Assembly: GCF_027359675.1 (NCBI RefSeq)
Contig: NZ_CP114786.1
Location: 1,802,501 to 1,866,500, forward strand
Source of the DNA: Roseibium sp. Sym1
GTDB lineage: Bacteria; Pseudomonadota; Alphaproteobacteria; Rhizobiales; Stappiaceae
Direction: 5' to 3'
DNA: 64,000 nucleotides
Position 1 is the first letter of the stretch. Every line of letters starts with the position of its first letter. The notes under the pieces were generated by a model. It saw only the letters and a program-made list of their open reading frames with translations, did not search any database and was not told the origin of the DNA. The position numbers and the translations under genes are program-made. Shown one piece after another: positions 30,758 through 61,421 of the stretch.

Positions 30758-30893
30758 TTAAAGCGAGCCGTACGCCGCCTTATCCGTTAGCTCTATTAAC
30801 CTCAGAAGTCATCAATTTCCTCTTGATATTCAATTAATTATCGTATAGCGTGCGGTTGTTGCCAATTGCAACCGTTAAACACTTCGTTGCGCC

Positions 30894-30916
30894 AAAACCG
30901 TTTCAAAAACCGTTTC
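30894..30916. repeat. Tandem repeat upstream of the integrase start
   Basis: AAAACCGTTTC occurs twice (30894-30904 and 30906-30916) just before the integrase ATG and about 140 bp from the att core. Short direct repeats at this place suit arm-type integrase or excisionase binding sites. Confidence 0.45.
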
Positions 30917-30937
30917 AAAAATCTCAGGTATCATGAC

Positions 30938-33543: not shown

Positions 33544-36500
33544 TCATTCGATCGACTTCTCGACAAAGCCGAGCGTATTGGCATTTTCGACCAGCGTCCG
33601 CACCTTTGCGCGATCGAGTCCGCCGGGCACTTCTGCTTCGATCTCGAGCCTTAGCCTCACTTCGTTACCTGGTAGCGTCGTGAGCTGTTCGACGATCGCC
33701 TCGACAATTTGGTGGATATCCCTTGCCGGCCGTTCCGGCGAGATCATTACGGTGCCGGTAAACCGCGTTGGCTTCCGCTCTGAATGAGGCGAACCGGGAG
33801 CCCCGTCCGTTGCTTGCTCTTCGAATTTTTGCGACTTCTCACCAGGCGCCTCCGAACCGCCGGTCAGGCCAGGCTCTGCGGGGGCCGGCCTGTGTGCCTC
33901 AGCAACGTCAGACTTCACGATGATGCTATCGCTGTCGATGACCACAACCGCATTGTCGGTTCGTTCGATTGCAAGCCCCAGATAGGCACCTGCATTCTCA
34001 TCCCATCGCTCGGCGTAGGCGAAGGGTCCGGGCAGCATGCCGCTGACGGCTGCCTGTACGGCCTTAATCAAGACGTCCCGGTTCTTCAGTCGCGGTAGAT
34101 AGATGTGGCGGTTAAGATACTCCAGCAAATCCTTCAATGACAGGTGTGGTTTGCCGTTCCAGATGTATTTCTGGAGATCGCGATCGAGGCGCGATGGTCC
34201 CAGTTCGGTGAGCAGCCCTTCCTCGGCCACGAGCTTTTTGCTCACCCGCGCCAATAGCCCGTCCTGTGCCGGAATCTTGCCCGACATCCACTCGACATCG
34301 GCCTGGGCACTCTCCTGCGTCGGATAATGCAGATAGCACCACGCCTCCTTGAGACGCGTCTTTATCGTCTCGGTTGCTTCGGCCAGCTTGGCCTTAGCGA
34401 GCGCACTGTCACTCTGGGTGAGGTTGAGCCGATCAGTGTCGCGGACGATCTCGCCCCACGCTAGGGAGGTGCGCACGGCGTCTTTCAGGTTGTCGAGCTG
34501 GCGGGCGTCCGCAGCGATAAACACCAGGGTGTTGCGATACACGCGCGGTGCGCTGCCACGCTGCATCAGGATGTCCTTCGCTTCGATCAACGCTTCCGAG
34601 GTGTCGCGTCCGTTGTGCGAATGCGCGACCCCCAATACCACGGCCCGCACGCCGCCGGCTTCATCGGGCACCTCGGCCGAGGAGGCTGGCGCGACCTGCC
34701 GGGCGTCGAAATGCCCACGATCCGCGAGGCCATTCACATATTTGCCGAGTTCCGCGTCGATCGTCACGTCAACCAACGCCGCTTCGATCTGCGCTGCCTT
34801 ATCCGCGGCAATTCGGTTGAGGCTGGCCGACATGGAGTACCAGTAGCGGCCAAGATCGGCGTGCATGAACTTGGCCTGGTTGGTCAGCCGCCGAAGTGCG
34901 TCTCCAAAAATTGCCGGGCGCTCTCCCGGCTGCACGACTCCAAGATTGATCTGCTTGTCGTCCAAACCGGTATTCTGCTGCTGGTGCGTCGGCGCGGTTC
35001 CCATGAAGATCGTTCGGGCGACCCGCCTGGTCGCCGAGTAGCGGTTCAGGTTCGGCGCCGATTGATCGATCTTATAGGGCGTGGACGTTGTGCCATCGAC
35101 ATCACCGGCGATGATCGACTGCCAGCTTACGTCGAGATAGTGCAGCAACTCCGGCTCAATGCGCGGCGAGCTAACCGCGACGCTTCCTGGCATGATCATC
35201 ACCGACGGGTCGCCGCTCATCCAAAGCTCGTGGACGGCCTGCGCCATCAGACGGAGTACGCCTCGCGTACGTTGGAATTTTTCGAGTGAACCCCAACTCG
35301 TGTAGAGTTGATCGAACAACTCGGGATGGATCGGATAAGCCTTCTCCAGCTTGCGGCGGTAGTCTTCGTCCGCGCAGCCCTGCGGGAAATCGTTGGCGTT
35401 CTCTCGATAGAGCTTGGCGAACTGCTTCAGCGTGTTGTCACGGTGATGGAATTTGTCGCCGGGGATGTCCTTGAACAGCCGCCGCCGGACGATTTCATAG
35501 CTCTCTTCCTGGCTCGCCGGCCGCCACGAGGATTCCACACGGCTGAAGGTCTGCTTGAGGCGCGCTAGCGCTTCCTGGCCCCCTTCGCCACCCACCTCGA
35601 TCTGCGAGGCGGGTAAGGAGGCGACGAGCAGTGTGCCGGGGCTAGCCTTCACCGCCTCCGTCAGCGACTGAACGAAGGACAAATTCGCATCGAACGACCC
35701 CGACGGCAGCCCCTCGACCTTGTAGATCTGCCGGAGGTAGGCGACCCATTCATCGATCAGGATTAGGCTCGGCGCATATTTCTTGAAGAGCGCCTCCAAG
35801 AGGTTCGAGCCCGGTGCGATGCCGCTGGCGTCGTTTCCCGCCACCATGGCATAGGCGTCAGCGCCGCCAAGCTGCCAGGCGAGTTCACCCCAGGTCGTTC
35901 GGATTTTCCGATCACCCTCGGCGTGGAGCACGTCCTGCGGTCCTCGCGATGTGCCGACGAGCACAGCGCGATTGACGCCCTTCGGCACGCTAAGGCCCTG
36001 CTTTTCGAGCAACTGGTCCAGGCCGGAGAGATCCTGGACCGGAGTCGGGCCGCCCATGTGATAGAGGGCCAGCATCGAGTGTGTCTTGCCGCCGCCGAAG
36101 TTAGTTTGCAGTTCAACGACGGGATCGCCGCCGCTGCCGGACAGCCGCTTCGCTGCCCCGATCAGCAGCGCGCTCAAACCTTCCGTCAGATAGGTGCGGC
36201 TGAAGAACTGGCGCGGGTCGCGATATTCCGGCGGAGCGCTGCCCGAATGCACCTTGGCGAGATCGGCTGCGAATTCGGCCTGCTGGAACTCGCCGGTGGC
36301 AACATCCTGGTGCGGCTCGACCACCTCGCGCCACGGCAATAGGCCGGCCACGGTCTCGACCGAGATTTCGAGACGCTGGGTTTTCCGTCGCTCCTCGTTG
36401 CGCCGAAGCTCGGTGAACTTCGTGCGCAGAATAGTGTCGCGCATCTTGCCGAGCTGCTCGGCCGTCTCGCCGGCGCTGATCGCCTCCATCAACCGACGCA

Positions 36501-36840
36501 TGGAATCGAGCGCGCGCTCGGCGTCGTCGTAGGTGAAGGTCGCGTTGTGCGATAGCTTGTTCCGAACGTCGCCCAGCTCATTGACCAGCGAGCGTTCGGC
36601 ACGGCCGAGCACCGCTTTGAACGCCTCGCTCCAGAAGCGATCCATGACGTTGAACAGCGCGGCCTGGTCCCAACCGACCGCGCCGCTGCTGTTAGGACGC
36701 AAGTTCGGCAGCTTTTCCAGCACCTGGACTTGCCAGTGCCCCTTTAGCGAGGTTTCGAGCCGCTTTTCGACGAAAGGAATCAGCGCCACCGGCAGCAGTT
36801 CCATTCCTTCAAATACATATTGGCGCGTGCTTTTTGCCAC
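33544..36840 (-). CDS. HEPN (Swt1-type)-DUF499 ATPase
   Basis: A 1098-aa protein. Residues 1-120 resemble the Swt1 HEPN domain, with the RxxxxH motif as R93-N-K-L-S-H98, a putative RNase site. Residues about 200-900 are a DUF499-type P-loop ATPase: Walker A NFGGGKTHS (K252), Walker B-like LILIDEWVAYLRQ near residue 360. The C-terminus (EVRLRLEIEAEVPGGLDRAKVRTLVENANTLGF) is conserved in such proteins. DUF499 ATPases accompany DUF1156 methyltransferases in defence loci. It starts at GTG 36840 with GAGGGG upstream, 13 bp after the methyltransferase gene, and is the last gene of the operon. Confidence 0.88.
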   Translation of the reverse strand: MAKSTRQYVFEGMELLPVALIPFVEKRLETSLKGHWQVQVLEKLPNLRPNSSGAVGWDQAALFNVMDRFWSEAFKAVLGRAERSLVNELGDVRNKLSHNATFTYDDAERALDSMRRLMEAISAGETAEQLGKMRDTILRTKFTELRRNEERRKTQRLEISVETVAGLLPWREVVEPHQDVATGEFQQAEFAADLAKVHSGSAPPEYRDPRQFFSRTYLTEGLSALLIGAAKRLSGSGGDPVVELQTNFGGGKTHSMLALYHMGGPTPVQDLSGLDQLLEKQGLSVPKGVNRAVLVGTSRGPQDVLHAEGDRKIRTTWGELAWQLGGADAYAMVAGNDASGIAPGSNLLEALFKKYAPSLILIDEWVAYLRQIYKVEGLPSGSFDANLSFVQSLTEAVKASPGTLLVASLPASQIEVGGEGGQEALARLKQTFSRVESSWRPASQEESYEIVRRRLFKDIPGDKFHHRDNTLKQFAKLYRENANDFPQGCADEDYRRKLEKAYPIHPELFDQLYTSWGSLEKFQRTRGVLRLMAQAVHELWMSGDPSVMIMPGSVAVSSPRIEPELLHYLDVSWQSIIAGDVDGTTSTPYKIDQSAPNLNRYSATRRVARTIFMGTAPTHQQQNTGLDDKQINLGVVQPGERPAIFGDALRRLTNQAKFMHADLGRYWYSMSASLNRIAADKAAQIEAALVDVTIDAELGKYVNGLADRGHFDARQVAPASSAEVPDEAGGVRAVVLGVAHSHNGRDTSEALIEAKDILMQRGSAPRVYRNTLVFIAADARQLDNLKDAVRTSLAWGEIVRDTDRLNLTQSDSALAKAKLAEATETIKTRLKEAWCYLHYPTQESAQADVEWMSGKIPAQDGLLARVSKKLVAEEGLLTELGPSRLDRDLQKYIWNGKPHLSLKDLLEYLNRHIYLPRLKNRDVLIKAVQAAVSGMLPGPFAYAERWDENAGAYLGLAIERTDNAVVVIDSDSIIVKSDVAEAHRPAPAEPGLTGGSEAPGEKSQKFEEQATDGAPGSPHSERKPTRFTGTVMISPERPARDIHQIVEAIVEQLTTLPGNEVRLRLEIEAEVPGGLDRAKVRTLVENANTLGFVEKSIE

Positions 36841-36853
36841 GTTCCGTTCCCCC

Positions 36854-39766
36854 TCAAATATCCAACCGGATCTGACGATCGCCGCGTGCGTCGTGGATGG
36901 ACGCCGCGGCCTTTGTCAGCTCAGTCCAATCGGCGATCAGGGCGTTGTAGGCCGTGGCCTCCTTCGCATCCTTCCGCTTGTTTGCGCTGATGTCGTAGAG
37001 GCAGTAGGCGAGATCCTTCACCGCCACGGCCTGGGTGCTGATCTTCTTCAAAAGGACGGCGGTATCGTGGGAGATACCGTCCTTCTCGTGCAGGCGGATC
37101 AAATGCTGGAGACACTCCCACACCGTCAGGTGTCTGTCCTCTTCCGGATCCCAATCCTTGTCGAGTTCGTCACGGGCGAGGATGCGGACCTTGCCGGCGG
37201 CGCTATCTATGATCCCGGCGTGCTTGACGCTTTCGACCGCGATACCGCGCGCACGGGCAAGGTTGTCAGCCACACCATAGTCCCCCTTGCCTTTCCCGTG
37301 CTGCTCGAACCAGGTGATGGCGAACCGGGTGTCCGCGTCGAACTCACCCTGGATGCCCCCTAGGTACTCGTCGAGTTCTTTGTTGATGAGCTGAAGCGCG
37401 GTTTTCACGCTCATCGGATTGTCGTCTGACTCCAGCACAGTCTTGTAGCGCGAGAACACGCCCATGCCGGGGCCGATGGCTGATTGTGGCATATCCGCCG
37501 GCGCGATGTTGGCGGCCTGAAGCTCGGAGATCGATGGCGGCAGCTCGCGCTTCAATGCACGGATGAACTCAGCGCGTGTAATGCTTTCTGCCGTGGTTTC
37601 CTTCTTTCGACAAACGAGGACGACGGAGTTGGCAAGAGCATTGGTCCCCGAGGCGATCATGCGGTTCGCCATTTCGGTACGCATCGGCCAAGTACCAACG
37701 ACAGCGTAGCCGGCTTCGACTACTGCTTGCAGAAAGGTGGCCCAACCTGTCGAGCTGATGCCCTCTTGATCAATCTCGCTCTGCTTGAATGCGTAATAAA
37801 TCGTCGCCGGAAACGCATCCGATGATTGGGCCGCCATATTCGCGATTGCACGGCTCATCCCATCAAGGAAAAAGCGTTCGGCAGACTCGCGCCCCCCATG
37901 CCGATACGGCGTTGCTACCAGCTCCTCGGCCTTGGGCGTGGCGAGAACGGAAAAGACCTCTGGATATACCTTCTGGATATTTGGCTTCATCCAGCAGTAG
38001 AAAAAGTCCGACAAATCCGCATAGCCAATATTGTCATAATAGGGCGGATCGCACGAAATAACGGTCCCCGCTGGGTATTCGGCGGTCTGCGCGTCCTGAT
38101 TACACTCGATACCCGGTGAAAATGGTAGAAACCGGTCCAAAACCTTGGAAACCGTTGTCGCGCTCACGAGAAAATCGCCAGCAGCACTTGCAAATGGATT
38201 GGCCTCGAAAAAATCCCACGACATGGGAATAGCCTGCCGACTGAACATATTCTTTAGCTGCGTCTTGTCCGCTGCCCACCGGCAGATCGTGTTGCAGCTG
38301 TCGGCAAGTCTGCTACCCGCCAATCCAAGATAGACGCTTACTGCCTCAGCATAGGCTTGGGCTCCGCTACCGCCATCGCGCAAAGGTACGCCATCGTTCT
38401 GGAGTCCGACGGCCAAACCATCGACCTCAATTTGTTCCCGTGCTTCCTGTACCAGATCGCTGAAAGTGTTCAGAGCCACCAACTGGCGATCAGTGAACAA
38501 GTCGCCGAAAGTCGCTAGGCCGTAGTCCACCGTCCAGAAATTGCGAGGATCGTTCGGGAGTTTGGTTACCGGTTCCCATACAGGCTTTGCCGACAGGGCG
38601 ATTGTTTCGTGCATCTCCGTAGGCGCGACATAGGCTCTGCTGCGATTACCTTCCGCAACAATGGCGATCAGCGTTTGGCCCATTTTGCCGGCACGCCCAT
38701 TACTCTTCACATAGTCAGGAGTGATTGCAGCATCTGACATAAGGCAGCGGAAATTCGCGCCGCGACCTGCCTTGGTCCCCTCCTTGGCCGCCGCGATCTC
38801 GGCTTTGGTTCCGCCATGCCTGACCCGATAGGAAATGGACTTCGCCTGCTTATCGACGATGGGCTCGACCCACGCCTCCTTGCCGGTCTTAGTGCTGAGC
38901 AGGAAGCTCGATGCGATTGGTACCGCAACATTCGAGAACGCTGGATCGGGACTTGGCACCGTGCGCGCCCAGATCCAACCAATCACTGTCGCCCTGGCCC
39001 CCCCATATCCCTTCGTCAGTTCAATCTGCGGATAGAGATGCCCGATGCGTTCCCATGCCTTCTTGCGCATCCACTCGCCGTAATATTTGACGTCCTCCGC
39101 TAGACCCTCGGCGTTACGATAGAACTGCCGGTCCTTCGCGCCCCGATGGACCGGCTCCTTGTCCTTGAACTTCGGCGGGATCTCGATCATCGCCTTGCCG
39201 ATCATCACCGCGACCGGGTTCAGATCAGACCCATAGGCGGGCAGACCGAGACGCTGCGCCTCCAGCGGGATTGACCCGCCGCCCGAAAACGGGTCATAGA
39301 CTGGCGGCAACTCGCCGCCGCAGCTCTTGCGGATTTCGACACGGGCCCGTTTCAGCACCTTCTCGTTAGTCGAGTTCTCCCACTTCACCAGGTCCTCGAT
39401 GATGGCGAAGAGCCGCTTGCGCTCAATCTCGACCGCTACGTCCTCCAGCGTCGGCTCTGGTGAAACCGCCGCCGTCCCCTGCGCCGAAGCCTTGCTCTTC
39501 TCCCAAGCAGCAAGGCGCTCCGGTAGTTCCGCTTCCGCCTGAGCACGGAGTGAGGAGTTGGCGAGCAGTTCTTCGGCGTGAGACGAAGGGTCATCAACCA
39601 GCTGGGCAAAAAGAACAGCTCGACACGCAGCTAACGGCCGCCGCGCCCACCACAGATGCAGCGTTGACGGATGGCCATGCCTGATCGACTTCTCGCGCGC
39701 AGAGGCCGCATTGATCGCTTCGAGCGGAATGGCGACTTCGATGAGTTTCTTTTTGTAAGCTGTCAC
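36854..39766 (-). CDS. DUF1156 DNA methyltransferase
   Basis: A 970-aa methyltransferase. The N-terminal DUF1156 signature is SAREKSIRHGHPSTLHLWWARRP near residue 22. The SAM-binding motif DPFSGGGSIPLEA begins at D158, and the catalytic motif IV is DPPYYDN from D573, which points to amino-methylation (N6-adenine or N4-cytosine). The large insertion between the two motifs is typical of the family. The GTG at 39766 overlaps the previous stop (GTGA). In defence loci of this class the enzyme marks host DNA, with the ATPase and helicase as partners. Confidence 0.92.
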   Translation of the reverse strand: MTAYKKKLIEVAIPLEAINAASAREKSIRHGHPSTLHLWWARRPLAACRAVLFAQLVDDPSSHAEELLANSSLRAQAEAELPERLAAWEKSKASAQGTAAVSPEPTLEDVAVEIERKRLFAIIEDLVKWENSTNEKVLKRARVEIRKSCGGELPPVYDPFSGGGSIPLEAQRLGLPAYGSDLNPVAVMIGKAMIEIPPKFKDKEPVHRGAKDRQFYRNAEGLAEDVKYYGEWMRKKAWERIGHLYPQIELTKGYGGARATVIGWIWARTVPSPDPAFSNVAVPIASSFLLSTKTGKEAWVEPIVDKQAKSISYRVRHGGTKAEIAAAKEGTKAGRGANFRCLMSDAAITPDYVKSNGRAGKMGQTLIAIVAEGNRSRAYVAPTEMHETIALSAKPVWEPVTKLPNDPRNFWTVDYGLATFGDLFTDRQLVALNTFSDLVQEAREQIEVDGLAVGLQNDGVPLRDGGSGAQAYAEAVSVYLGLAGSRLADSCNTICRWAADKTQLKNMFSRQAIPMSWDFFEANPFASAAGDFLVSATTVSKVLDRFLPFSPGIECNQDAQTAEYPAGTVISCDPPYYDNIGYADLSDFFYCWMKPNIQKVYPEVFSVLATPKAEELVATPYRHGGRESAERFFLDGMSRAIANMAAQSSDAFPATIYYAFKQSEIDQEGISSTGWATFLQAVVEAGYAVVGTWPMRTEMANRMIASGTNALANSVVLVCRKKETTAESITRAEFIRALKRELPPSISELQAANIAPADMPQSAIGPGMGVFSRYKTVLESDDNPMSVKTALQLINKELDEYLGGIQGEFDADTRFAITWFEQHGKGKGDYGVADNLARARGIAVESVKHAGIIDSAAGKVRILARDELDKDWDPEEDRHLTVWECLQHLIRLHEKDGISHDTAVLLKKISTQAVAVKDLAYCLYDISANKRKDAKEATAYNALIADWTELTKAAASIHDARGDRQIRLDI

Positions 39767-41055
39767 AGTTCCACCTCGATCCAATCGAAATCAGGAAACG
39801 GCTCGCCCGGATGCCGAAGCCTTAGCTCGCCCATCAAGGAACCGTCCGAAAAAACACTGCCGTAAAATGTCCCGCCATCCAGATCGGCGGGCGTGTCTCG
39901 CCGCTCCGATGGTTCCAGCGCCATCAACTCTGAAGCACCAGCCGGCTGTACCGCCGAACTCAGAGCGCGCAGGACTTTCAGATCAAGGCCGACAAGTTCG
40001 ATGTCGATGCCATCCCGGAACCAGGGGAAAGGCCAAAACGGCCAGTCTCGGAATTCACGCCAGAATTTGCGGCTAGACAGGTCGGGATACCTCGGCGCCA
40101 CAGACGCGATGCTGACAGCATATTGGCGTCCACCCACGGATAGAAGAGGAAACTCGTATCGCCGCGGCTCCTCTTCGTCTTCCCGAAGCCGAGTAGCCGC
40201 GTCGTCCAATCCCATCAGCGATAGCCACGAGGAATAATTAGCCCGGCGAACCGCGTCGCGGGGGAATTCGACAGGATTTTCAGAGATCTCCGGTTCAGGG
40301 TCGACGAAAGCGATAAGCGATGTCTCGCCGGAAGTATCTCCGGTTTCACGTAGGAAGGTGCCGATCGCAAAGCTCTTGATTGGCTGGGGGGTGATATATT
40401 TGTCCCAACCGTCGAGCTGGGTCAGTCCCTCCCTCAGGGCGCCTTTGATTGGCGGTTTCCGTCCAGGAGTCGAGAACCCACCCTTGCACTCGGCGAGCAC
40501 CCATTCCTGTCGTGCGTTTTCGGCGATGAAGTCTGGTGCCTTCGTCTTGTCTGCTGGCCATTGCCTATTTTGCGTGGTGGCGCGTTTCCTCCATTCGGTT
40601 TCAAAGCGACCGACATAGGCGTAGCCGGTGTCCTCCAGGAACAGTAGAGCCATACCTTGTGCAATCCGACCGGCTAAGCCAGTGCCGGCGAAGTCAGCAT
40701 AGAAATTTGACATGCCCTCGTTCAGGCACCATTCGCTCGCGTCCCAATCGAACAGGTGACCGTTTTCGAGAAGAAACCCGGTAGCCCCTACCCACCGAAT
40801 TGGCGCGGACGGCCACCGCAAGCAATCAGCCTTCTTGACCGCGTGGGCGAGACGCCAAGCACTGAAATTCACGGTGCCCGATGCTTTCGGTAGCGGTCGT
40901 GTACGACCGTGGGGCTTCTCCACCTTGGCCTTCGCCAATTCATGGACGGGGAGGTTGCTGTGCCCGTTAAACGCCTGAAGGACCCGTTTGGAAACGCCAC
41001 CCCAACGAGCCATGTGGTCGAGCGGCAACGCCATAGCGCTAGTCGTTGAGGTCAT
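39763..41055 (-). CDS. Unknown protein with PD-(D/E)XK-like nuclease motif
   Basis: A 430-aa protein with no family I can name. Near residues 168-190 it has APDFIA followed 13 residues later by VLAECKGG, the PD...(D/E)xK pattern of restriction-like nucleases. The C-terminal third is rich in acidic and aromatic residues (WREFRDWPFWPFPWF). The start overlaps the upstream ATPase gene by 17 bp and its stop overlaps the methyltransferase start, so it belongs tightly to the operon. It could be the DNA-cutting subunit; this is inference from one motif. Confidence 0.7.
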   Translation of the reverse strand: MTSTTSAMALPLDHMARWGGVSKRVLQAFNGHSNLPVHELAKAKVEKPHGRTRPLPKASGTVNFSAWRLAHAVKKADCLRWPSAPIRWVGATGFLLENGHLFDWDASEWCLNEGMSNFYADFAGTGLAGRIAQGMALLFLEDTGYAYVGRFETEWRKRATTQNRQWPADKTKAPDFIAENARQEWVLAECKGGFSTPGRKPPIKGALREGLTQLDGWDKYITPQPIKSFAIGTFLRETGDTSGETSLIAFVDPEPEISENPVEFPRDAVRRANYSSWLSLMGLDDAATRLREDEEEPRRYEFPLLSVGGRQYAVSIASVAPRYPDLSSRKFWREFRDWPFWPFPWFRDGIDIELVGLDLKVLRALSSAVQPAGASELMALEPSERRDTPADLDGGTFYGSVFSDGSLMGELRLRHPGEPFPDFDWIEVEL

Positions 41056-44000
41056 AAACGAGCCTGTATGTTGCGGGATGAATGGTGATCTCGCCGTTGT
41101 CGCGCAGCGCGCGTAGGTGAGTCCCCGTCATCTCGACGGGCTCGCCCTCCGGGTTGACGAGAATGAATGAGTACACGTCGGGCTTCAGATCGAGCAGGCC
41201 CCAGATGTCAGCTTCGATCTGAAGCGCGTCGCGCTCCAGACAGTGTTCCTTCGGATAGTAGTGGCACAACACCTCGCCGCTTGCCGAGCGGCGCTCCCAC
41301 GGAAATCTCGCACCATTGGCGCGGCCGATCCAGCTTCCATCCGAATTGAAAAAGCGGTCGTTGCCGTCGGCCTTGTAACCGTGGGCGAGCGCGAAACGCG
41401 CCATGACGCTGGGACGTGGAGGCTTGGGGGCAACACGGGGCTTGGTGGCGATTTCAGCGTCAATCAAGTCATGATCCAGCTCTTTGGGCTGCGGCTCGGG
41501 TTCGGGCGGTGCGGTGGATTCATCGTCCTCCGACAGATGGACATCGTCCTTCGCGATCGACGCAGCATCCTCATCAGCGCCCGCGGAAGGCTCCCCTACT
41601 ACACCGTCCTCAATCGGTGCGGCTTCGGGCGGGAGCTCGACAGCCGACGCAACGGTTTCTTGCTCAGGGCCAAGCGTGAAGTTCTCCTCGAGGTAGTCCT
41701 TTATGTCCTCAGGCGATCGATCGAACGCATAGGCTAGGGCTGCGCGAATATCGGTAGTCAGGTTCCTTCCGATCTCCTCGGGCACGCGCTTGGCGAGCTT
41801 CGCCTTCGGTAGAGGGCCAACGAACAGTTGACGGTCCAGCCAAAGGACGTCGGTAAGCCGCGCGGTGCCAGCGGGCATACCATCGAGGTAGGGAATGACC
41901 TCCAGTTTGGGCGCCTGGACCCAGCTTGTCTCCGCAATCGCTTCCGCTAGTGCTCTCACACGCTCGGTGTCGGCGGAATCGGCAAACTCGATCCGCCCGA
42001 GCTGAACTCCGAACGCTGTCAACCAGGCGCGCCGGTCTTCAAGACCCGTAAGCGACGAAGGCTGGTTGAAGCGCTCTTCGACGAGGTCCGATAGCGCAGC
42101 CATTGACGCAAACGGGACAGCCTGAACCGTGTCGGCCGAGAGCTGACGGAGATCCGCAGTCCTGCGTTTTACCCAATTGTGAAGGTGCCCGTAAGTGAAC
42201 AGGCTTTGCATGCTGAGCATATACGCGAGCGTGTCCACCGGAACCCATTCGCCCAGCAGGTTCACCCAATGGCCGCACTCTTCCCAGATTCGCGTCGGGT
42301 AGCGTCCCAGCAGGGTGCGAACGCGACGCGCATCGTCGGGCGACAGCACCTTTTCTGATTCCAGAGTGCCCAGCCATTGTAGCGCCAGGTCCGCTGACGG
42401 ACGATCAGCGACACCGATGCGCCGCCATAAGCTGAGATCGACCACCGAGACCCGGACTGTCGCAGCGCCAGGAACATCCTCTTCATCCCCGGCTAGGAAC
42501 ACTCCTCCCGACGTGACCCACGTGCCGTCGTGGGCAAGTATGAGTTTCTCGGTCCTGAAGGCATCCCTGATGCTCTGCGCGTCCGTGGTCGAGCTTCCGT
42601 CAAACATCTGATCGAGACGGCGATACCATTTCTCGACTTCGTGGCTAGGAGCCCTGTCCGACTTTGCCAATGCGCGCAGCCGGTCGAGCAAGCGCTCCGG
42701 GCCGCTCGGTGTATTCCGGACGCCGAGCAAGTCCAGCAGCGGGCGGGTCGTTTCCCGGTCGAGCAGCCCCTGCACAAAAGGCTCGACATCGATCAGTGCT
42801 TCCGTCTCCGGGGTGCGCCGCAGAAGATCGCCGGGTTTATGCAGGAAACCGCGCACATCGCGAAGGCACGGCAGCTCCCGAAGCCGCGATGCCCACGTCG
42901 GAAGTAGCCCGCGGCGCAATACGGTTCGTCGATGGCCGTTGGAAGCTTCCTCAACGATTGTCGCAGATGCCTTCTGTGACCAGAAATCGCTCTTCTCCGC
43001 AATCAGTCTCTCCGCGACGGCAGCCCATATGCCGTCGTCCGTCTTTGCTGCGCGCTGCCAATGCGTCCAAAGCTCAGCTGGAAAGTCCCAATCGTTAATA
43101 TAGAACCACGGGTCCTTGTACCGATACTCAACCCGTCCCGAGAATGCTCGCTTCTTGAGCTCGACATTCAGCGAAGACTCGCGTCCCGAGAACGTCCGCG
43201 TCTCTGCAAGGGGTGGGAATGTCCGCAGCCCCGATCTGCCCGACGAGATCCATTGGAGCCACTCGTCGCGGGTACAGGACTTGAAGCTCGCAACATAATC
43301 GGGATGTAGAAGCCGAGTTTTCTGGATTGCCTCTGGCAACAGCTGTTCCAGCGTGCCGTGCTCATCGAACAGCACGGCCTTTTCGATAGCGCGAAGCTTC
43401 AGGTCAGCACAGGCATACCGAAAGGATCCGCCGATGGTGACCCCCAGCTTAGCTGCGATTTGGGCAAGCTGGACGCACTCGACCAGCTTTGGCTGATCAG
43501 AACTGAAGTAATCGACGGCGACGCGTTCGATCACGGCATTGACGTCGCTGGTCCCGTCAAGGCCGATCTCCTCTAGCACCGCGAAGGCTGCCTCGACAGC
43601 GTCGCCTCGCCCAGTGTCCTTGGCACTCCTGCCGCGACGCTGTTCAGCGAGGAAGCGCGTCCAGTTCTGGTTGAGTACTATCAGATGGTCGGCCAGGAAC
43701 TCCCAGTCCTCGTCCGACTGTAGCAACTTCTTCTCGCCGAGTCGTACGACCTCCGAGGCTGAGTAGAGCACTTCCTTGCCTTGGACCGGAACGACGCGTA
43801 GTTGATCGGCGTTGCGGCATTGCCAGCCAGTCACCTCGGGCGCGATATACGACCACAAATTCAGCAGGTGTCGCCACGTGGACGGTCGGGGGAGATGCTT
43901 GTTACGCAGTTGCTCAAGCAGATCGGCTTTCGAAAATTCCTCGACTAGGTTCCAATGAACCAGCTTGGTTCGGTCTCTCGACGACACATGCTGGCAGAGC

Positions 44001-45271
44001 GCCGGTCGCGACTGTTTATCGAGCAAGGCCATCGCCTGGTCGGCGGGCCAGATATCAAATATCGGCTGTGGGACAGCGATCGCCCCGTTGGCTGCGGCGA
44101 CATGGCCTTCTTCGGTGAGCAGGACCGGCCGATCTCCGATCGCTTCATCAAACGCCAGCTCGACAATGGCAGCACAAGTCCCTTCTAGCGTGCTCGCCTC
44201 TCGGTCGACGTCTGGGAGAAACCCGTAGGCATCCGCCCTCTCTCGCGGACTGGCTTTGGCTTGTTCGAGCCAATCTGCCATCGCATTGGCGGCGAGCTCG
44301 CCGGTGCGCTTCAGCAGCCAGCGATTGGTCGGCGACGTCTCTGGATCTTTGATCTTAAGTCGCGCAGGATCCTGGATGAAGGGAGCGTTGCAGGCGAAGG
44401 GAAGCGGGGTCTCAACACCGGTCGGCAGGACAACATAGAGTCGTCCTTTCGCTCCCAGGACGATCTCCACCCGGCAGGGTGGAAAGTCGCCGCCGTCCTC
44501 GGCGCCAATCATACGCTCCTTACGGATCTCGTCGAGCGCATCGACCGGAAACTCCTCTTCGGCCGAGCGCACCAGCAGGAAGGGATCATCCGCTTTATCG
44601 TCAAGGGCCATCCATTCGCTGTTGGCGATGGGACCCGGGCCGAGGCTTTGCCAATGCACTGCCTCATCGCCGATTTGAAGGCGGCGAATTGTCTTGAAGA
44701 AGAGCAGCGACACCGGGCTTTTCAGCCATTCGTCGAGGTTCTTTTCGACCTCACGGCGCAGCAAGGGGTTGGAGATCGCCACCTCGACACGCGTCGTTCC
44801 CGACGTGGTGCTCGCGCCGTCGATCCAGCGCGGTTCGGTGAACCGGGTGCGTTCGAAGGCGATAGCGAGAGTCGGCGTGAAAAGCTCGACCCGATCACCC
44901 AGGCTGAATGTGCTCTTGAAGCCGATTCCCCGAAAACCGATCGTATGGAGGGCGCGCTTGTTCGAGTAGCCGAAGCGGCAGATCGACGCGAAATGAGCTT
45001 CGATGAAATCCTCGCCATCATGCTCGAACACGAAGCGATCATTCTCGATCGATACCCGCGCTTCCTTGGCGCCAGCATCGTCGGCGTTCTGAAGCAGCTC
45101 CGAGAGAATGTGTCGCGGGCTTTGCACCTGTTTGAAGAGCTGGTGCCAAGGACCTGCGAGCTCCGGGTCCGCTTCGAGCTGGTCCCAACGTCTCGACGCG
45201 CTTTCCCGTATCCGATGGAAATAGCCGGGGGGAGCGGCGGCGCTGGCCGCTATTTGACGCCCCGCGCTCAT
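41039..45271 (-). CDS. Sacsin/Hsp90-like ATP-binding protein, 1410 aa
   Basis: The N-terminal 200 residues are a GHKL ATPase of the sacsin type: ILSELLQNADDAGA near residue 55 (N-box) and IGFRGIGFKSTFSLGD near residue 110 (G-box). The middle 1000 residues show no clear domains; an acidic linker (EDAASIAKDDVHLSEDDEST) precedes a conserved C-terminal block of about 130 residues that includes HYYPKEHCLERDALQIEADIW. The ATG at 45271 overlaps the previous stop (ATGA). Large sacsin-like ATPases occur in defence islands, but their role is not well known. Confidence 0.8.
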   Translation of the reverse strand: MSAGRQIAASAAAPPGYFHRIRESASRRWDQLEADPELAGPWHQLFKQVQSPRHILSELLQNADDAGAKEARVSIENDRFVFEHDGEDFIEAHFASICRFGYSNKRALHTIGFRGIGFKSTFSLGDRVELFTPTLAIAFERTRFTEPRWIDGASTTSGTTRVEVAISNPLLRREVEKNLDEWLKSPVSLLFFKTIRRLQIGDEAVHWQSLGPGPIANSEWMALDDKADDPFLLVRSAEEEFPVDALDEIRKERMIGAEDGGDFPPCRVEIVLGAKGRLYVVLPTGVETPLPFACNAPFIQDPARLKIKDPETSPTNRWLLKRTGELAANAMADWLEQAKASPRERADAYGFLPDVDREASTLEGTCAAIVELAFDEAIGDRPVLLTEEGHVAAANGAIAVPQPIFDIWPADQAMALLDKQSRPALCQHVSSRDRTKLVHWNLVEEFSKADLLEQLRNKHLPRPSTWRHLLNLWSYIAPEVTGWQCRNADQLRVVPVQGKEVLYSASEVVRLGEKKLLQSDEDWEFLADHLIVLNQNWTRFLAEQRRGRSAKDTGRGDAVEAAFAVLEEIGLDGTSDVNAVIERVAVDYFSSDQPKLVECVQLAQIAAKLGVTIGGSFRYACADLKLRAIEKAVLFDEHGTLEQLLPEAIQKTRLLHPDYVASFKSCTRDEWLQWISSGRSGLRTFPPLAETRTFSGRESSLNVELKKRAFSGRVEYRYKDPWFYINDWDFPAELWTHWQRAAKTDDGIWAAVAERLIAEKSDFWSQKASATIVEEASNGHRRTVLRRGLLPTWASRLRELPCLRDVRGFLHKPGDLLRRTPETEALIDVEPFVQGLLDRETTRPLLDLLGVRNTPSGPERLLDRLRALAKSDRAPSHEVEKWYRRLDQMFDGSSTTDAQSIRDAFRTEKLILAHDGTWVTSGGVFLAGDEEDVPGAATVRVSVVDLSLWRRIGVADRPSADLALQWLGTLESEKVLSPDDARRVRTLLGRYPTRIWEECGHWVNLLGEWVPVDTLAYMLSMQSLFTYGHLHNWVKRRTADLRQLSADTVQAVPFASMAALSDLVEERFNQPSSLTGLEDRRAWLTAFGVQLGRIEFADSADTERVRALAEAIAETSWVQAPKLEVIPYLDGMPAGTARLTDVLWLDRQLFVGPLPKAKLAKRVPEEIGRNLTTDIRAALAYAFDRSPEDIKDYLEENFTLGPEQETVASAVELPPEAAPIEDGVVGEPSAGADEDAASIAKDDVHLSEDDESTAPPEPEPQPKELDHDLIDAEIATKPRVAPKPPRPSVMARFALAHGYKADGNDRFFNSDGSWIGRANGARFPWERRSASGEVLCHYYPKEHCLERDALQIEADIWGLLDLKPDVYSFILVNPEGEPVEMTGTHLRALRDNGEITIHPATYRLVYDLND

Positions 45272-45759
45272 AGCGGCCACTCAAGTGTAGAGGGAGTGGC
45301 TACCAGTTCTGGTCCGCGCGGTGGGGAGCTTTTGCGCCAGCCACCCTTGACCGTTTGGATCGCGGAAATCGCCAAGCGTTGCGCGGCAGCCAGCTCGCAC
45401 AGTTCGGACACGTGCCAAAATACCGCCCAGTGCCCTTGATTATCCGACGAATATTGCCCCGTAGTCGGGGGGCGATGCAACATGCCATTCGAATGCTTGC
45501 CGTTTCCGCTTTCCTCACAACCGACATACCATCCCACCCAGGACACGATAAAACTGTCCTTCGCCGGTACGTCCTCATGCGACGGATATATGAGGACAGG
45601 AACACGCTGATCGGCGCGCAGTTCGTCGACTTTGCGGAACAGCTCCCACTTGCGCGAGCCAAATGCAACGAAGCCGGTATTGCCGGAGATTTCGGCTCCC
45701 GATTGAAGGTGCTCCAGCGGAACAGGGGCGAGGATGGAGAAGTCCTGGATATCAATCAC
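45268..45759 (-). CDS. Small operon protein, unknown function
   Basis: A 163-aa protein starting from GTG (AGGGGG 5 bases upstream), Trp- and Ser-rich with several conserved-looking aromatic blocks (SWVGWYVGCEESGNGKH, GHWAVFWHVSEL). I recognise no family. It sits 9 bp after the helicase gene and overlaps the sacsin-like gene by 4 bp, so it is translated with both and is likely an accessory subunit. Confidence 0.7.
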   Translation of the reverse strand: MIDIQDFSILAPVPLEHLQSGAEISGNTGFVAFGSRKWELFRKVDELRADQRVPVLIYPSHEDVPAKDSFIVSWVGWYVGCEESGNGKHSNGMLHRPPTTGQYSSDNQGHWAVFWHVSELCELAAAQRLAISAIQTVKGGWRKSSPPRGPELVATPSTLEWPL

Positions 45760-45768
45760 GACAACCCC

Positions 45769-48700
45769 CTAAGCTGGCTCTTGCGCCCGCTCCAGCAGGC
45801 GACGAAGGTCGAATTGAATTGCTGTTTCAAGGAACGAGGGCTCCCGCTCGACGAGCGGGCCACGCACGTAGCGCGGTTCATGGGCGAAGCCGTCGGCGAC
45901 CGCTACGATCGCCAGAATGAATTTCTCCGGCTCGTGCAAGGACGTGATGACTTCCTGGCGCGTGATCATCACGGAATTTGCACCATCGATGCGACCTTTG
46001 ACTTCTATGAACCGAAGATGCCCCGATTTCGGATCATGTGAAGCAATGTCGTAGCCAACCTTCTGGCCGGAGACATCGACAGGAGCGTGTCCCAGAGCGC
46101 GTTCCGCCGCCATCACCGCTTGCATCGCGGCAATCTCGATTTTCTTGCGGGCGGCGGGATCTTCCGCGAAATGGTCTGGAACTCGGGGGGCATCCCGCGC
46201 AGCCAGAAGGCCATGCGGAATGACCACCATGCCACCGCGCACACGTGGCGGTTGGGATGAAATAAACCGCTCCTGCTCAAGCTGGTCCATTCGGCGCTTC
46301 TGCCGCTCCGCGAGGTCCTCGGCACGACGCTGCGCGTTCTGCCAGTTTAGCCGGGTTCGCTTACCGGCCTTTTCTTCTTCTTTCAGTTCGAAGGCACGCG
46401 AGTCCCAGTAATTGATCTCTTTTTTCAGTCGGGCCCGGACTTCCTGCTCGACCTTCTCGACTTCAGGCAACCGGCGGGCCTTGACCTCTGAGACATGTTC
46501 CTGGGCCAGTTCCACCGTGGCAAACCTGATCGCAGACTTCTCCAGTTCGCTGGTCAGCCATTGCTCGTCGAGCAGGTCACGCACAGCGTCGATCTCTTCT
46601 GTCTTTGCCGGTCGCAGGTTGAGATGAGGCGCGATTCCGGCGTTGACAGTCGTGCCGGCTCGGTCGATTGCGGCGAACTGGAGGCGCTGCGAGATTACAT
46701 GCGGCTTCCCTGCGCTTGTGGTTCGGCCGTCCTGTACTGTGTGCTCCAGAAGGAAGATTGCCGAAATCGCGTCGCCCGGATCGGTCTCATCGACCATGAT
46801 TGCACCTTGGCGCATGATCTGCTCATATTGCTCGCGGATCAGGCTGATTACGGCCTCCAGAAGCGGGTGACCGGGGCAGATAAAGGAAGCGACTGGCTGC
46901 TGGTTGATGTGGGCCTTGTCGAAACAAATCCGCTCATATTGTTTCTGAACAGGCGCTCCGGTGCCAATCTGCCGATCGCGCTCGCGGATGCGTACCGGAA
47001 CGTGCGTGATCTCCCAGCGCCCATCTTCGCGACGCTTGAGACGGCCACCGAGATGCTGGAATGCCTCAATGAAGAAACTCTGGATGTGATGAGGCTGGAG
47101 CCGCTGTGCTTCGGCACGCTCCATTTCGAGTCGCAGCTCATCGACCTTGGCCGCGGGCATAGTGTCGTTGGTCAGCGCCCGCCGCCGAAGTAACTCCAGC
47201 AGATGGGATTGATCGACTGCTCCATCTACCTGGCGGAAGAGATATGCTTTCACATCCTCCTGCTCGCTGTACTGCACTGCCTGGAGGAGCAGCTCCTTGA
47301 GCGACGTACCTTCAAAAAGCTCACCCAGCACATCGTAGACGCGACCGCCCAATGCCTCCCGTGCCGTCTCCAGCTTTTCTAGGAGCCGCGCATAGACTTC
47401 ACCTTCGCGCGTGTCAGCCGCCACGAGATTCCACAAGTGACATACCTCGGACTGCCCGATTCTATGGATGCGACCGAACCTCTGCTCGATCTTGTTGGGA
47501 TTCCATGGAAGGTCGTAGTTGACCATCAGATGCCCGCGCTGAAGGTTCACACCCTCGCCGGCTGCGTCGTTTGCGATAAGGACAAGCAAGTCCTTGTCCT
47601 GCATGAATCGCTCGATAACTTTTCGACGTTCCTCGCGCGATACCCCGCCATGAATCACGTCGACTGCCTCGGGATTGCCAAGGCGCGCACGTACCTTGTC
47701 GAGAAGATAGTGAAGCGTGTCTTTGGGCTCTGTGAAGATGATCAACTTACGGCGATTCCCCGCCGCGTCAGTCATGAGATCATCGTCGAGAATACGATTG
47801 AGTTCGGTCCACTTCGTGTCCACGCCGGAACGCAGGACGCCCATGGCTTTGGACTCGAGGTCTTTCAGCGTCTCGACTTCCAACGCAAGCTGTTCGATCG
47901 TCTCAGCCGTCGTCGCGCCAGTTGAAATCAGATCCTCAAGTTCGTCGATCTCCTCCTGGCCGTATTCCTCGATGTTGCCCAGCATATCAGCGTTGAGCGC
48001 CGGCTCAGCGACTCCGGCACGGCGCCCTTTGGCCGCCAGCCGCGCTTCGCCCAACTCTGTCTCCAAACGCTCGCGACGGCGTTTCAGCGACTGGTAGATT
48101 GCTGCCGGAGATGAAGCGAGGCGCCGTTGCAGGATCTGTAATGCGAAACCAACATTGTTGCGCTTCTTGTTATCCCCTTCGGCGAACCGCTGCACACGGT
48201 TCATTTCGGTACGCACATATTCGGTGACGGCAGTATAAAGGGCGGCCTCGCCTTCGGAGAGCTCGTACTTGACTGTGCGGGCACGGCGCGGCGGGAAAAG
48301 CGGCCGGCCGTCGAACTTGAGCAATTCCTCCTTCGTCAGCCTCCGCATCATGTCTTCGGTGTCAGCGTAATGTACGCCGTCCCGGAATCGGCCTTCGAAA
48401 CGATCGCCGTCGAGCAGTGCCATGAAGAGTTGGAAGTCCTCCTCCTTACCATTGTGTGGGGTCGCCGACATGAGCAGGAGATGGCGACAGACTTGCCCAA
48501 GCTTCTGCCCGACTTGATAGCGGCGTGTATATTTCACCTCGCCGCCAAAATACGTCGCTGACATACGATGTGCTTCGTCACAGACGATCAGGTCCCATTC
48601 GCGGGCGCTCATGAGCTTCTCCTGAAGCTCCTCGTTGCGCGCCAACACATCGAGCCTGACAATTAACCGGTCTCGATCGCTGAACGGGTTGCCCGACCGC

Positions 48701-49272
48701 GAGGTTTCGATCATGTCACGTGTGAGGATGTCGAATTCCAGATCAAATTTTTGCCCGAGTTCGTCTTGCCACTGCTCAACAAGACTGCCAGGCGCGACGA
48801 TCAGGCATCGTTCGAGATCACTTCGTGCGATCAACTCCTTGAGGAGCAGGCCGGCCATGATCGTCTTACCGGCACCAGGGTCGTCTGCGAGGAGGAAACG
48901 CAACGGCTGGCGCGGCAGCATCTCGCCGTATACTGCTGAGATCTGGTGCGGCAACGGATCGACCAGGCTCGTGTGAATGGCGAGGTAGGGGTCGAAATAG
49001 TGTGCCAGCTTGATGCGGTTGGCCTCGGTCACGAGACGCAAAAGCGCGCCATCGGCATCGAACGACCAGGCTCGACCGCTCTGCTCCACCTCAAGGCGAT
49101 GCTCATCGTCGCGATAGAGGACCGACTCCGCCACCGTTCCGTTATGGTCGCGGTAGACGACGTTAATCGCCTGGTCGCCAATCCAGTCGACCGAAACGAC
49201 ATGCGCCGGCCTCGCCGAGGCAATACCGCAGATCGACGCGCCGTTCTTTACATCCTCGAGTTTTGCACCCAT
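45769..49272 (-). CDS. SNF2-type helicase with C-terminal DUF3883 domain
   Basis: A 1167-aa SF2 helicase/translocase. Motif I is LLADDPGAGKT (K136), motif II CDEAHRMS near residue 235, motif III LLLMSATPHNGKEEDF, and the helicase C-terminal half has FTEPKDTLHYLL, VLIANDAAGEGVNLQ and IEQRFGRIHRIGQ. The last 120 residues form DUF3883 (VGYDIASHDPKSGHLRFIEVKGR), a PD-(D/E)XK-like fold. The architecture matches DrmD/Hma-type helicases of phage-defence loci, where it may load onto or translocate along foreign DNA. First large gene after the regulator, 25 bp downstream. Confidence 0.92.
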   Translation of the reverse strand: MGAKLEDVKNGASICGIASARPAHVVSVDWIGDQAINVVYRDHNGTVAESVLYRDDEHRLEVEQSGRAWSFDADGALLRLVTEANRIKLAHYFDPYLAIHTSLVDPLPHQISAVYGEMLPRQPLRFLLADDPGAGKTIMAGLLLKELIARSDLERCLIVAPGSLVEQWQDELGQKFDLEFDILTRDMIETSRSGNPFSDRDRLIVRLDVLARNEELQEKLMSAREWDLIVCDEAHRMSATYFGGEVKYTRRYQVGQKLGQVCRHLLLMSATPHNGKEEDFQLFMALLDGDRFEGRFRDGVHYADTEDMMRRLTKEELLKFDGRPLFPPRRARTVKYELSEGEAALYTAVTEYVRTEMNRVQRFAEGDNKKRNNVGFALQILQRRLASSPAAIYQSLKRRRERLETELGEARLAAKGRRAGVAEPALNADMLGNIEEYGQEEIDELEDLISTGATTAETIEQLALEVETLKDLESKAMGVLRSGVDTKWTELNRILDDDLMTDAAGNRRKLIIFTEPKDTLHYLLDKVRARLGNPEAVDVIHGGVSREERRKVIERFMQDKDLLVLIANDAAGEGVNLQRGHLMVNYDLPWNPNKIEQRFGRIHRIGQSEVCHLWNLVAADTREGEVYARLLEKLETAREALGGRVYDVLGELFEGTSLKELLLQAVQYSEQEDVKAYLFRQVDGAVDQSHLLELLRRRALTNDTMPAAKVDELRLEMERAEAQRLQPHHIQSFFIEAFQHLGGRLKRREDGRWEITHVPVRIRERDRQIGTGAPVQKQYERICFDKAHINQQPVASFICPGHPLLEAVISLIREQYEQIMRQGAIMVDETDPGDAISAIFLLEHTVQDGRTTSAGKPHVISQRLQFAAIDRAGTTVNAGIAPHLNLRPAKTEEIDAVRDLLDEQWLTSELEKSAIRFATVELAQEHVSEVKARRLPEVEKVEQEVRARLKKEINYWDSRAFELKEEEKAGKRTRLNWQNAQRRAEDLAERQKRRMDQLEQERFISSQPPRVRGGMVVIPHGLLAARDAPRVPDHFAEDPAARKKIEIAAMQAVMAAERALGHAPVDVSGQKVGYDIASHDPKSGHLRFIEVKGRIDGANSVMITRQEVITSLHEPEKFILAIVAVADGFAHEPRYVRGPLVEREPSFLETAIQFDLRRLLERAQEPA

Positions 49273-49297
49273 CAGTCGACGCTTCCCCCCGAAATCT

Positions 49298-50161
49298 TCA
49301 TAGCTGAAGCTCCGCCTTTTCCAGCGCCGCCTCAGTCTCCTTGCGGTTTAATGCAACGATATGCTGCGTACGAGGGCTTTGCTTTGCCGCATCCACAAGC
49401 AAGCCAAGTCGCTTGAGAACATAGAACAGCATTGCATAGCGAACCGAAAGAACGCCGCTCCCGTGGTCGAACCCGTAGTCTTTGGCGACAACCTTTTTCT
49501 GGCTCTCCGTGAGATCGGGATGCGGACCGATGACCACGTCGAAAAAGTTGTTCCAGAGCCAGTCCTGCTCGCCAGTTGCCCCGGGGTCGCCTTTGCCGCC
49601 GACTTCAAGCGTCCGTGGCAACAGGAAGTCCTTGAACTTGTGCTCAAGGTGACAATAGGCGCGAACATGCCAACGGAACCCGTCATAGCCAAACGCATGC
49701 GGCGTGATCCTTCTCCAAATCGGATCCGGGCGAACTTTGTTCATAGACTGATAGAAGACATCCACCGAGACGCCTTCGCGCACGGCATCGAGAATCTTGC
49801 GCAGAACCTCGATGTCGACATCCCGCTTGGGCGTTAGCGCAACATCGGTCTTGGGGAGTTCCGCAATCCAGGAATCACTTGATGGGACGGAGCCTTCGGC
49901 AACTGAACGAAGCTGGGCGAGATAGACATAAGGGTCGGGATCCAGGAAGCGCAGGACAAACTTCTTGGCAGCAACATAGCGCTTGCCGCGCTTGTCATAC
50001 TCCATGTTTCCGGGCGCCCTCTCCTGATAAAGCGCCAGATCTTTCGAAGCCTGCGGAACCGACACGCCAAAAAACTCAACGATGTCGGCGCGGTTGATCG
50101 AGCCCTCCCAGAACAGGCGAAACTCAATAAATTCAAGCCTTTGCTCAACACCCCAGCGCAC
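49298..50161 (-). CDS. WYL-domain regulator, BrxR/CapW-like
   Basis: A 287-aa protein with an N-terminal winged helix (RLEFIEFRLFWEGSINRADIVEFFGVSVPQASKDLALYQE), a WYL domain (about 130-200; VFYQSMNKVRPDPIWRRITPHAFGYDGFRWHVRAYCH) and a C-terminal WCX-like extension. The arrangement matches the BrxR/CapW repressors that sit at the head of BREX, CBASS and other defence operons. GGGAG lies 6 bases upstream of the GTG at 50161. It is the first gene of the operon and divergent from the AddB-like operon, so it probably controls both. Confidence 0.9.
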   Translation of the reverse strand: MRWGVEQRLEFIEFRLFWEGSINRADIVEFFGVSVPQASKDLALYQERAPGNMEYDKRGKRYVAAKKFVLRFLDPDPYVYLAQLRSVAEGSVPSSDSWIAELPKTDVALTPKRDVDIEVLRKILDAVREGVSVDVFYQSMNKVRPDPIWRRITPHAFGYDGFRWHVRAYCHLEHKFKDFLLPRTLEVGGKGDPGATGEQDWLWNNFFDVVIGPHPDLTESQKKVVAKDYGFDHGSGVLSVRYAMLFYVLKRLGLLVDAAKQSPRTQHIVALNRKETEAALEKAELQL

Positions 50162-56521: not shown

Positions 56522-56535
56522 TCTGGGACGCGACC

Positions 56536-61363: not shown

Positions 61364-61412
61364 CGCGACGGGTTGAGTGCAGAGAGAGAGGCTCTCGGCG
61401 CCCGTCGCGGAG
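61364..61412 (+). promoter_or_regulatory. radC-motif-like RNA leader, copy 3 (ParB)
   Basis: CGCGACGGG (61364-61372) and CCCGTCGCG (61401-61409) form a perfect 9-bp outer stem; the inner stem is GAGAG (61382-61386) / CTCTC (61392-61396). The ribosome site GGAG overlaps the base of the outer stem, and the ATG of parB is at 61422. Confidence 0.7.
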
Positions 61413-61421
61413 AATATCCCA

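Follow-up and report, generated by a model that had tools for sequence, protein, structure and literature searches.

Hma, catalogued in PADLOC (Payne et al. 2021, PMC8565338), corresponds to the Type-1 BREX-related (BR) system (Rakesh and Krishnan 2026, PMC12839542). That account limits the system to an ATPase, a methyltransferase and a helicase, and notes further nucleases in or close to the locus. Hma has been counted in 1,638 instances across 26 phyla and is often found near Septu type I, and elsewhere too (PMC8565338). A HEPN-DUF499 fusion occurs in 1370 of 2446 Type-1 BR taxa, and phage defence by HmaA in Halomonas (PMC11232893) is recounted in PMC12839542. Here we describe a seven-gene operon at 33544..50161 of a 64,000-nucleotide stretch of Roseibium sp. 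Sym1 (contig NZ_CP114786.1, positions 1,802,501 to 1,866,500; hereafter the window). The operon joins a known Hma core to a sacsin-type GHKL ATPase, here called SACS. It represents a real sacsin-bearing variant of Hma with an ordered accessory slot between hmaA and hmaB, undescribed as far as the literature searched shows.

PADLOC recovers HmaA, HmaB and HmaC over nearly their whole profiles in one same-strand operon, the arrangement that defines Hma and Type-1 BR systems. Judged by sequence, the core is almost certainly Hma, as the initial annotation had proposed from its helicase, methylase and DUF499 ATPase. HmaA (45769..49272), an SNF2 helicase, scores 1592 bits over residues 4-1166 of 1167 and has Pfam SNF2, Helicase_C and C-terminal NOV_C/DUF3883 (75.3 bits) matches. 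The NOV_C motif GYDI...FIEVKGR is retained in all eight aligned rows displayed, and the domain appears to be of the PD-(D/E)XK type with an active-site motif, as expected of a Type-1 BR helicase, for which a TUDOR domain at the N-terminus is also described. HmaB (36854..39784) scores 1234 bits in PADLOC and matches Pfam DUF1156; its FSGGGS motif and the DPPY at residue 579 presumably fit amino-methyltransferases that modify N6 of adenine, the target expected for Type-1 BR, or N4 of cytosine. Mean identity falls to 0.42-0.60 in HmaB bins 301-600 versus 0.84-0.93 in bins 751-976, and this hypervariable region (~300-600) varies nearly independently of the other operon genes (rho -0.04 to 0.26). 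Such behavior is as expected of a region that sets the methylation target. The near-independent variation looks as if target specificity had been swapped by recombination. HmaC (33544..36840) fuses a HEPN domain (HEPN_Swt1, 92.1 bits, residues 12-122) to a DUF499 AAA+ ATPase (Pfam DUF499; PADLOC 946 bits, residues 167-1096). Its R-x4-H motif (RNKLSH) is kept in the window and in the seven sacsin-bearing relatives displayed. The C-terminal part of HmaC (~951-1098) is variable (bins at 0.62-0.77 versus 0.83-0.99 for bins 1-950) and does not covary with the recognition region of HmaB. PADLOC, Pfam and NCBIfam find no PglZ family member among the seven proteins; the PglZ and iSTAND genes that characterize Type-3 BR systems are not both present.

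All seven open reading frames were confirmed on the minus strand, in the single order and, for five of them, with the domains first read from the sequence. A WYL-domain regulator (49298..50161; Pfam WYL, 29.5 bits; PADLOC WYL) comes first, followed by HmaA, a 163-amino-acid (163-aa) protein (45268..45759), the 1,413-aa SACS (41039..45280), a 430-aa, likely 423-aa, protein (39763..41055), HmaB and HmaC. Start/stop overlaps had been claimed throughout. By the listed starts, they hold at three of the six junctions (163-aa/SACS, SACS/430-aa and 430-aa/HmaB); genes at the remaining three are 25, 9 and 13 base pairs (bp) apart. The SACS/430-aa overlap depends on the start chosen; that of a 423-aa database copy gives a 4-bp gap instead. 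The alphaproteobacterium Labrenzia sp. R4_2 (locus L014, which is the window's own record) encodes each of the seven proteins at 100% identity.

The sacsin-like nature of the ATPase is borne out by NCBIfam P_loop_sacsin (1.9e-21; sacsin N-terminal domain, 76.3 bits versus a cut-off of 50), with the Pfam SACS model just under its cut-off on the window protein (30.2 versus 32.8). The GHKL motifs of the ATP site (ELLQNADDA, H(D/N)GEDF and GFRGIGFKS) are intact in the eight aligned rows displayed. A Pfam scan gave no profile of the S5 domain that follows GHKL in MORC/paraMORC proteins, PADLOC, Pfam and NCBIfam recognized no effector domain, and a PDB sequence search returned no matches. The protein database search scored 7999 candidates and found 1651 relatives, of which the best 120 were taken, without genome context. 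Pattern scans favour close relatives, and their coverage is poor below ~45% identity. All placeable relatives with at least 49% identity adjoin Hma genes, one of them (plasmid hit H3) by annotation only. A 164-aa frame at G065:C49:5115-5504 resembles the SACS C-terminal domain only (38% identity), which suggests that this domain may also exist standalone. On a Rhizobium plasmid (L030:6169-13036), a distant sacsin-like protein (26% identity) directly follows a helicase-related gene beside an ABC three-component system and is perhaps another sacsin-helicase defence pair.

Scanning for SACS relatives with one genome per species yielded 28 loci, including L014. HmaA, SACS, HmaB and HmaC lie on one strand in this order in 24 of the 28, the other four being cut by contig ends or deleted. 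HmaA is found within 2 kb upstream of SACS in 26 of the 27 loci that have at least 2 kb upstream; in the contig L022, which begins within SACS, the upstream side is unreadable. HmaB is no more than 1.5 kb downstream of SACS in 27 of the 28 loci. The upstream miss, L029, has a piece of SACS (residues 753-1090) with parts of HmaB behind it; in the downstream miss, L018, a deletion fuses SACS to the end of HmaC. Wherever both flanks are readable, SACS occupies the hmaA-hmaB junction on the same strand, and intergenic gaps are nearly constant across close sacsin loci. The same order is seen on plasmid loci L033 and L034 (L042 being the same Niveispirillum replicon as L034) and on L057, the single SACS relative among the viral contigs scanned, where HmaB is interrupted. 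Because the four genes keep their order in 24 of 28 loci, the association of SACS with Hma is not due to chance, and the sacsin gene is repeatedly tied to the helicase-methylase-ATPase set as initially proposed. Of the 28 loci, 22 also have a WYL match.

Sacsin-bearing Hma is rare yet taxonomically spread. Among 385 alphaproteobacterial genomes, HmaC was detected in 14 at E <= 1e-60 and SACS in five at E <= 1e-10. SACS is full length in the window genome and G175, internally deleted in G066, and a weak partial match in the remaining two. Over 398 genomes of the phylum, SACS reached E <= 1e-60 in two, the window genome and G066. The G066 locus (L052, 9527-12596) is a decayed sacsin-Hma: SACS has a large internal deletion and still holds a 490-codon open frame, HmaB is truncated, and HmaC was not found there. 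Hosts include Alphaproteobacteria and gammaproteobacterial (L026), myxococcal (L016) and archaeal (L028) bins, which are possibly mis-assigned.

The initial annotation had gone further and suggested a distinct subtype in which the sacsin ATPase, the nuclease-like protein and the 163-aa protein are fixed between the core genes. The genome survey of co-occurrence, a test set beforehand, does not bear this out. Counting L014, 8 of 28 sacsin loci carry the 163-aa gene and 3 carry the 430-aa gene, and both genes also occur in Hma without sacsin; because of this, they are accessory and do not define a subtype, and the seven genes as one unit were rejected. The sacsin-less order HmaA-163-HmaB-HmaC is seen in L056, the single relative of the 163-aa family in the viral contig scan, and in decayed form in L035; HmaA-430-HmaB-HmaC is seen in L043, with HmaB split over two frames. 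Locus L055 reads 430-HmaB-HmaC, HmaA lying beyond the contig. A survey of 219 genomes from the same order as the window gave matches to the 163-aa profile in the window genome only, and to the 430-aa profile in the window genome and G836. The viral contigs gave 42 pattern stretches for the 430-aa family, none of them confirmed.

Neither accessory protein matches a Pfam, NCBIfam or PADLOC family. The predicted model of the 163-aa protein matches YTH/ASCH domains, as a PUA-like reader fold would, and such a fold is very probable for it; the assignment rests on the VIA second look. The family alignment (38 rows, from the best 120 of 504 relatives found) shows invariant tryptophans. None of its 38 members matches the Pfam YTH, EVE or ASCH profiles at E up to 5, where HMMER filters drop most matches above ~0.1, and a PDB search with the alignment gave a single match at E 0.88. 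That the protein reads N6-methyladenine is a rather doubtful proposition. Relatives with 34-36% identity lie on Nostoc plasmids L036 and L037, in fetched stretches without a Hma match. The 430-aa protein, initially called nuclease-like, retains that standing through its PD...ExK active site (P174, D175, E189 and K191), which is invariant in 40 of 40 rows of an alignment drawn from the best 120 of 165 relatives found, and not through any family match; a PDB sequence search with the alignment found nothing. It is probably a PD-(D/E)XK nuclease.

The hmaA-hmaB junction was read in 13 other HmaC-positive genomes, two of which (L044 and L051) stop short of it. It is empty in L040, L041, L046 and L047 and in the distant Hma-like L048 and L049. 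In L039, PtuA (605 bits) and PtuB (323 bits) form a Septu pair nested between HmaA and HmaB (L039:3902-5876). The junction holds the 163-aa gene and SACS in L042, the 430-aa gene in L043, and unassigned DNA in L045 and L050. Among the 28 sacsin loci, three have an ASCH-like slot gene (weak ASCH, E 0.017, below cut-off), and 206-aa and 197-aa genes occur in one each. In L033, the ASCH-like gene is split (ASCH E 0.007), with a second half weakly like a B3 DNA-binding domain (E 0.15). The 197-aa gene (L024:14251-14844) has an R-x4-H motif (RNFAAH) and is HEPN-like by eye, with no Pfam match. In every locus read, the order is unbroken: ASCH-like, 163-aa, SACS, then 430-aa, 206-aa or 197-aa. The HmaA stop overlaps the next start as ATGA in 28 of 41 HmaA-bearing loci and as GTGA in two, a count that omits L007 and the duplicates L001 and L042; the other 11 include the window, L023, L025 and L028. 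ATGA coupling is seen whichever gene follows HmaA, be it SACS, ASCH-like, 163-aa, 430-aa, PtuA or HmaB. The junction thus resembles a cassette site, translationally coupled in most, not all, lineages.

Maximum-likelihood trees were built for HmaA (37 rows) and HmaC (36 rows); the tree program warned of long branches. The rows left out were L014, which is the window's own, the broken or cut L018, L022 and L029, and also L042, L044, L051 and L052. The sacsin-bearing loci form three groups with well-supported branches between them: that of the window, the Rhizobium/Mesorhizobium loci L023 and L025, and L016 with L028. In both trees, the sacsin-less L043 and L046 are the nearest relatives of the window group. 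Sacsin presence requires at least three changes on either tree, and it is therefore a recurrent variant and not one clade. A subtype of single origin is unsupported, since the well-supported branches force three changes on both trees, subject to the long-branch warnings. In a set of 22 close rows, made up of 21 loci plus the window, SACS distances track those of HmaA (rho 0.63), HmaC (0.59) and WYL (0.54) more closely than those of HmaB (0.23). With gaps counted and the genes divided into parts, the correlation of SACS stretches is 0.23-0.60 for HmaA and 0.36-0.63 for the HmaB C-terminus; for HmaB 300-600 it is -0.01 to 0.09. This pattern would suit a part of the machine over a specificity part. 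SACS as a specificity partner of HmaB is unsupported: against the recognition region, three stretches of SACS gave partial Mantel r values of -0.05, -0.11 and -0.02.

The explanation that we favour, with a probability of about 0.55, is a Hma (Type-1 BR) restriction-like phage defence with an added sacsin-type GHKL ATPase that works with the core. Judging from family and motifs, HmaB would methylate adenines in a specific motif and thereby mark self; HmaC, in which a HEPN RNase domain accompanies an ORC-like AAA+ ATPase, would build a scanning complex; and HmaA, a translocating helicase-nuclease, would destroy unmarked DNA. SACS may then serve as a clamp or chaperone that uses ATP to open and close on HmaA/HmaB or their DNA and so controls when methylation gives way to cutting. 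The 163-aa PUA-like (YTH-type) protein could act as an optional modified-base reader and the 430-aa protein as an optional second nuclease, both being located in the slot. On the strength of the association, SACS is probably functionally tied to Hma. Its clamp or gating role, drawn by analogy with MutL/MORC-type GHKL ATPases (PMC2292703), where those of restriction systems are proposed to loop DNA, is tentative and may be wrong. Against the favoured explanation, close Hma relatives manage without SACS, which is the strongest argument that it is a lodger. SACS and each slot gene could be autonomous backup immune modules lodged in the junction and co-expressed, sensing phage or Hma failure and killing or restricting alone. 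The Septu pair in the L039 junction, the likeness of the SACS N-terminus to the Tiamat protein TmtA (187 bits in PADLOC), and the gain and loss of slot genes among loci are all consistent with this somewhat unlikely alternative. However, SACS has no effector domain that the profile searches recognize. The strongest argument that it is more than a lodger is that its placeable relatives with at least 49% identity all lie beside Hma genes, whereas Septu is known outside Hma loci. Auxiliary or backup nucleases within such loci, in line with autonomous modules, are in print (PMC12839542).

SACS might instead be a regulator or chaperone that restrains the HEPN RNase of HmaC, or another toxic Hma activity, until infection, with no contact with DNA. 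Eukaryotic sacsin is chaperone-like (PMC3710099), the R-x4-H motif of HmaC is kept in the displayed sacsin-bearing relatives, and SACS divergence tracks that of HmaC. Nevertheless, sacsin-less L043 and L046 retain the HEPN region (HmaC match from residue 1), which argues that SACS is not needed for restraint, and SACS adjoins HmaA and HmaB, not HmaC; we consider this role unlikely. Hma as published is a three-gene core (PMC8565338, PMC12839542) and the extra genes are not universal, as would be the case were SACS, the 163-aa gene and the 430-aa gene hitch-hikers that contribute nothing specific. The position and ATP-site motifs of SACS are, however, kept at 49-92% identity across three Hma lineages, and the active site of the 430-aa family is invariant, making mere hitch-hiking very improbable. 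An extension of the favoured explanation, which we regard as speculative and also unlikely, is that the junction is a general plug-in interface for swapping sensor and effector parts, with base readers (ASCH-like or YTH-like) at the front, the sacsin GHKL clamp in the middle and nucleases at the back. In the form seen in the window, a YTH-fold reader would inspect the HmaB adenine mark or phage adenine modifications, and ATP-driven closure of the clamp would translate the result into permission or attack. If true, this would be a self-reading restriction system, with a prokaryotic sacsin-type ATPase as a DNA- or complex-gating machine.

Beyond the WYL gene, a plus-strand operon (50475..59874; Pfam PDDEXK_1, UvrD and ResIII) encodes an AddB-like protein (50475-53129), an AddA-like UvrD nuclease (53126-56521) and an SF2 helicase (56536-59874). 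AddB divergent to WYL is full in 12 of 28 sacsin loci, with one remnant. Among the 385 genomes, the operon is found in all three with more than weak SACS matches and in six others; it is also on 60 plasmid records, 39 of them typed conjugative and one known to bear a full SACS. Because it occurs in those six other genomes and on the plasmid records, we set it aside as a linked, separable neighbour module. It is possibly an undescribed RecBCD-like module. In the two plasmid records inspected, L053 and L054, it adjoins other defence-like genes. An arm-type integrase DNA-binding domain gene (30866-32311, plus strand) and a ParB-like gene (61377-63581, plus strand) flank the region on either side, and from these the Hma locus is possibly part of an integrated mobile element.

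Hma and BREX-related systems are widespread (2,446 Type-1 BR taxa, PMC12839542). The recurrence of a sacsin-type ATPase at one place in three Hma lineages offers a testable handle on helicase-methylase coupling and a bacterial system for asking what such modules do. The ordered slot hints at where more undescribed defence genes may lie. With a predicted YTH-type fold next to an adenine-type methylase, whether the system reads its own mark can be put directly to the test.

Our literature searches, several of which gave top-ranked papers only and none of which extended to subscription papers, preprints or supplements, found no published description of a sacsin-bearing Hma. The initial "possibly undescribed" therefore stands for the sacsin-bearing form and not for the seven-gene unit. 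The words sacsin, GHKL, HATPase and Hsp90 are absent from the main text of PMC12839542, supplements lying outside this check; that paper does refer to Schlafen RNases in fusion with a minimal histidine kinase. PMC3710099 covers both sacsin and DUF499 and, in the text available, treats them apart. The MORC/paraMORC restriction systems (Iyer et al. 2008, PMC2292703) likewise place a GHKL ATPase beside an SF2/SNF2 helicase, a methylase and a PD-(D/E)XK nuclease; SACS differs in being of the sacsin type (NCBIfam P_loop_sacsin) and in belonging to a DUF499 system, and the word sacsin is absent from that paper. The archaeal COG1743-DUF499-SWI2/SNF2-nuclease system with a standalone EVE protein (Bell, Wolf and Koonin 2020, PMC7641849) shares the core and a separate modified-base reader of the PUA superfamily, to which the predicted YTH/ASCH-type fold of the 163-aa protein also belongs. 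In contrast to that EVE protein, the 163-aa protein has no EVE, YTH or ASCH profile match, and its gene lies inside the operon. Septu (PtuAB) can occupy the same junction, with proteins unrelated to SACS. Similarity to Tiamat is confined to the N-terminal region and does not extend over the whole protein, the best of two stretches aligning SACS 53-462 of 1413 with TmtA 73-489 of 1486. TmtA is a single-gene system. The closest described system is Hma/Type-1 BR itself, with which the window shares homologous HmaA, HmaB and HmaC, the HEPN-DUF499 fusion, the DUF1156 methylase and the SNF2 helicase with a C-terminal nuclease-type domain, and from which it differs in having, between hmaA and hmaB, two optional genes and a GHKL ATPase of the sacsin type.

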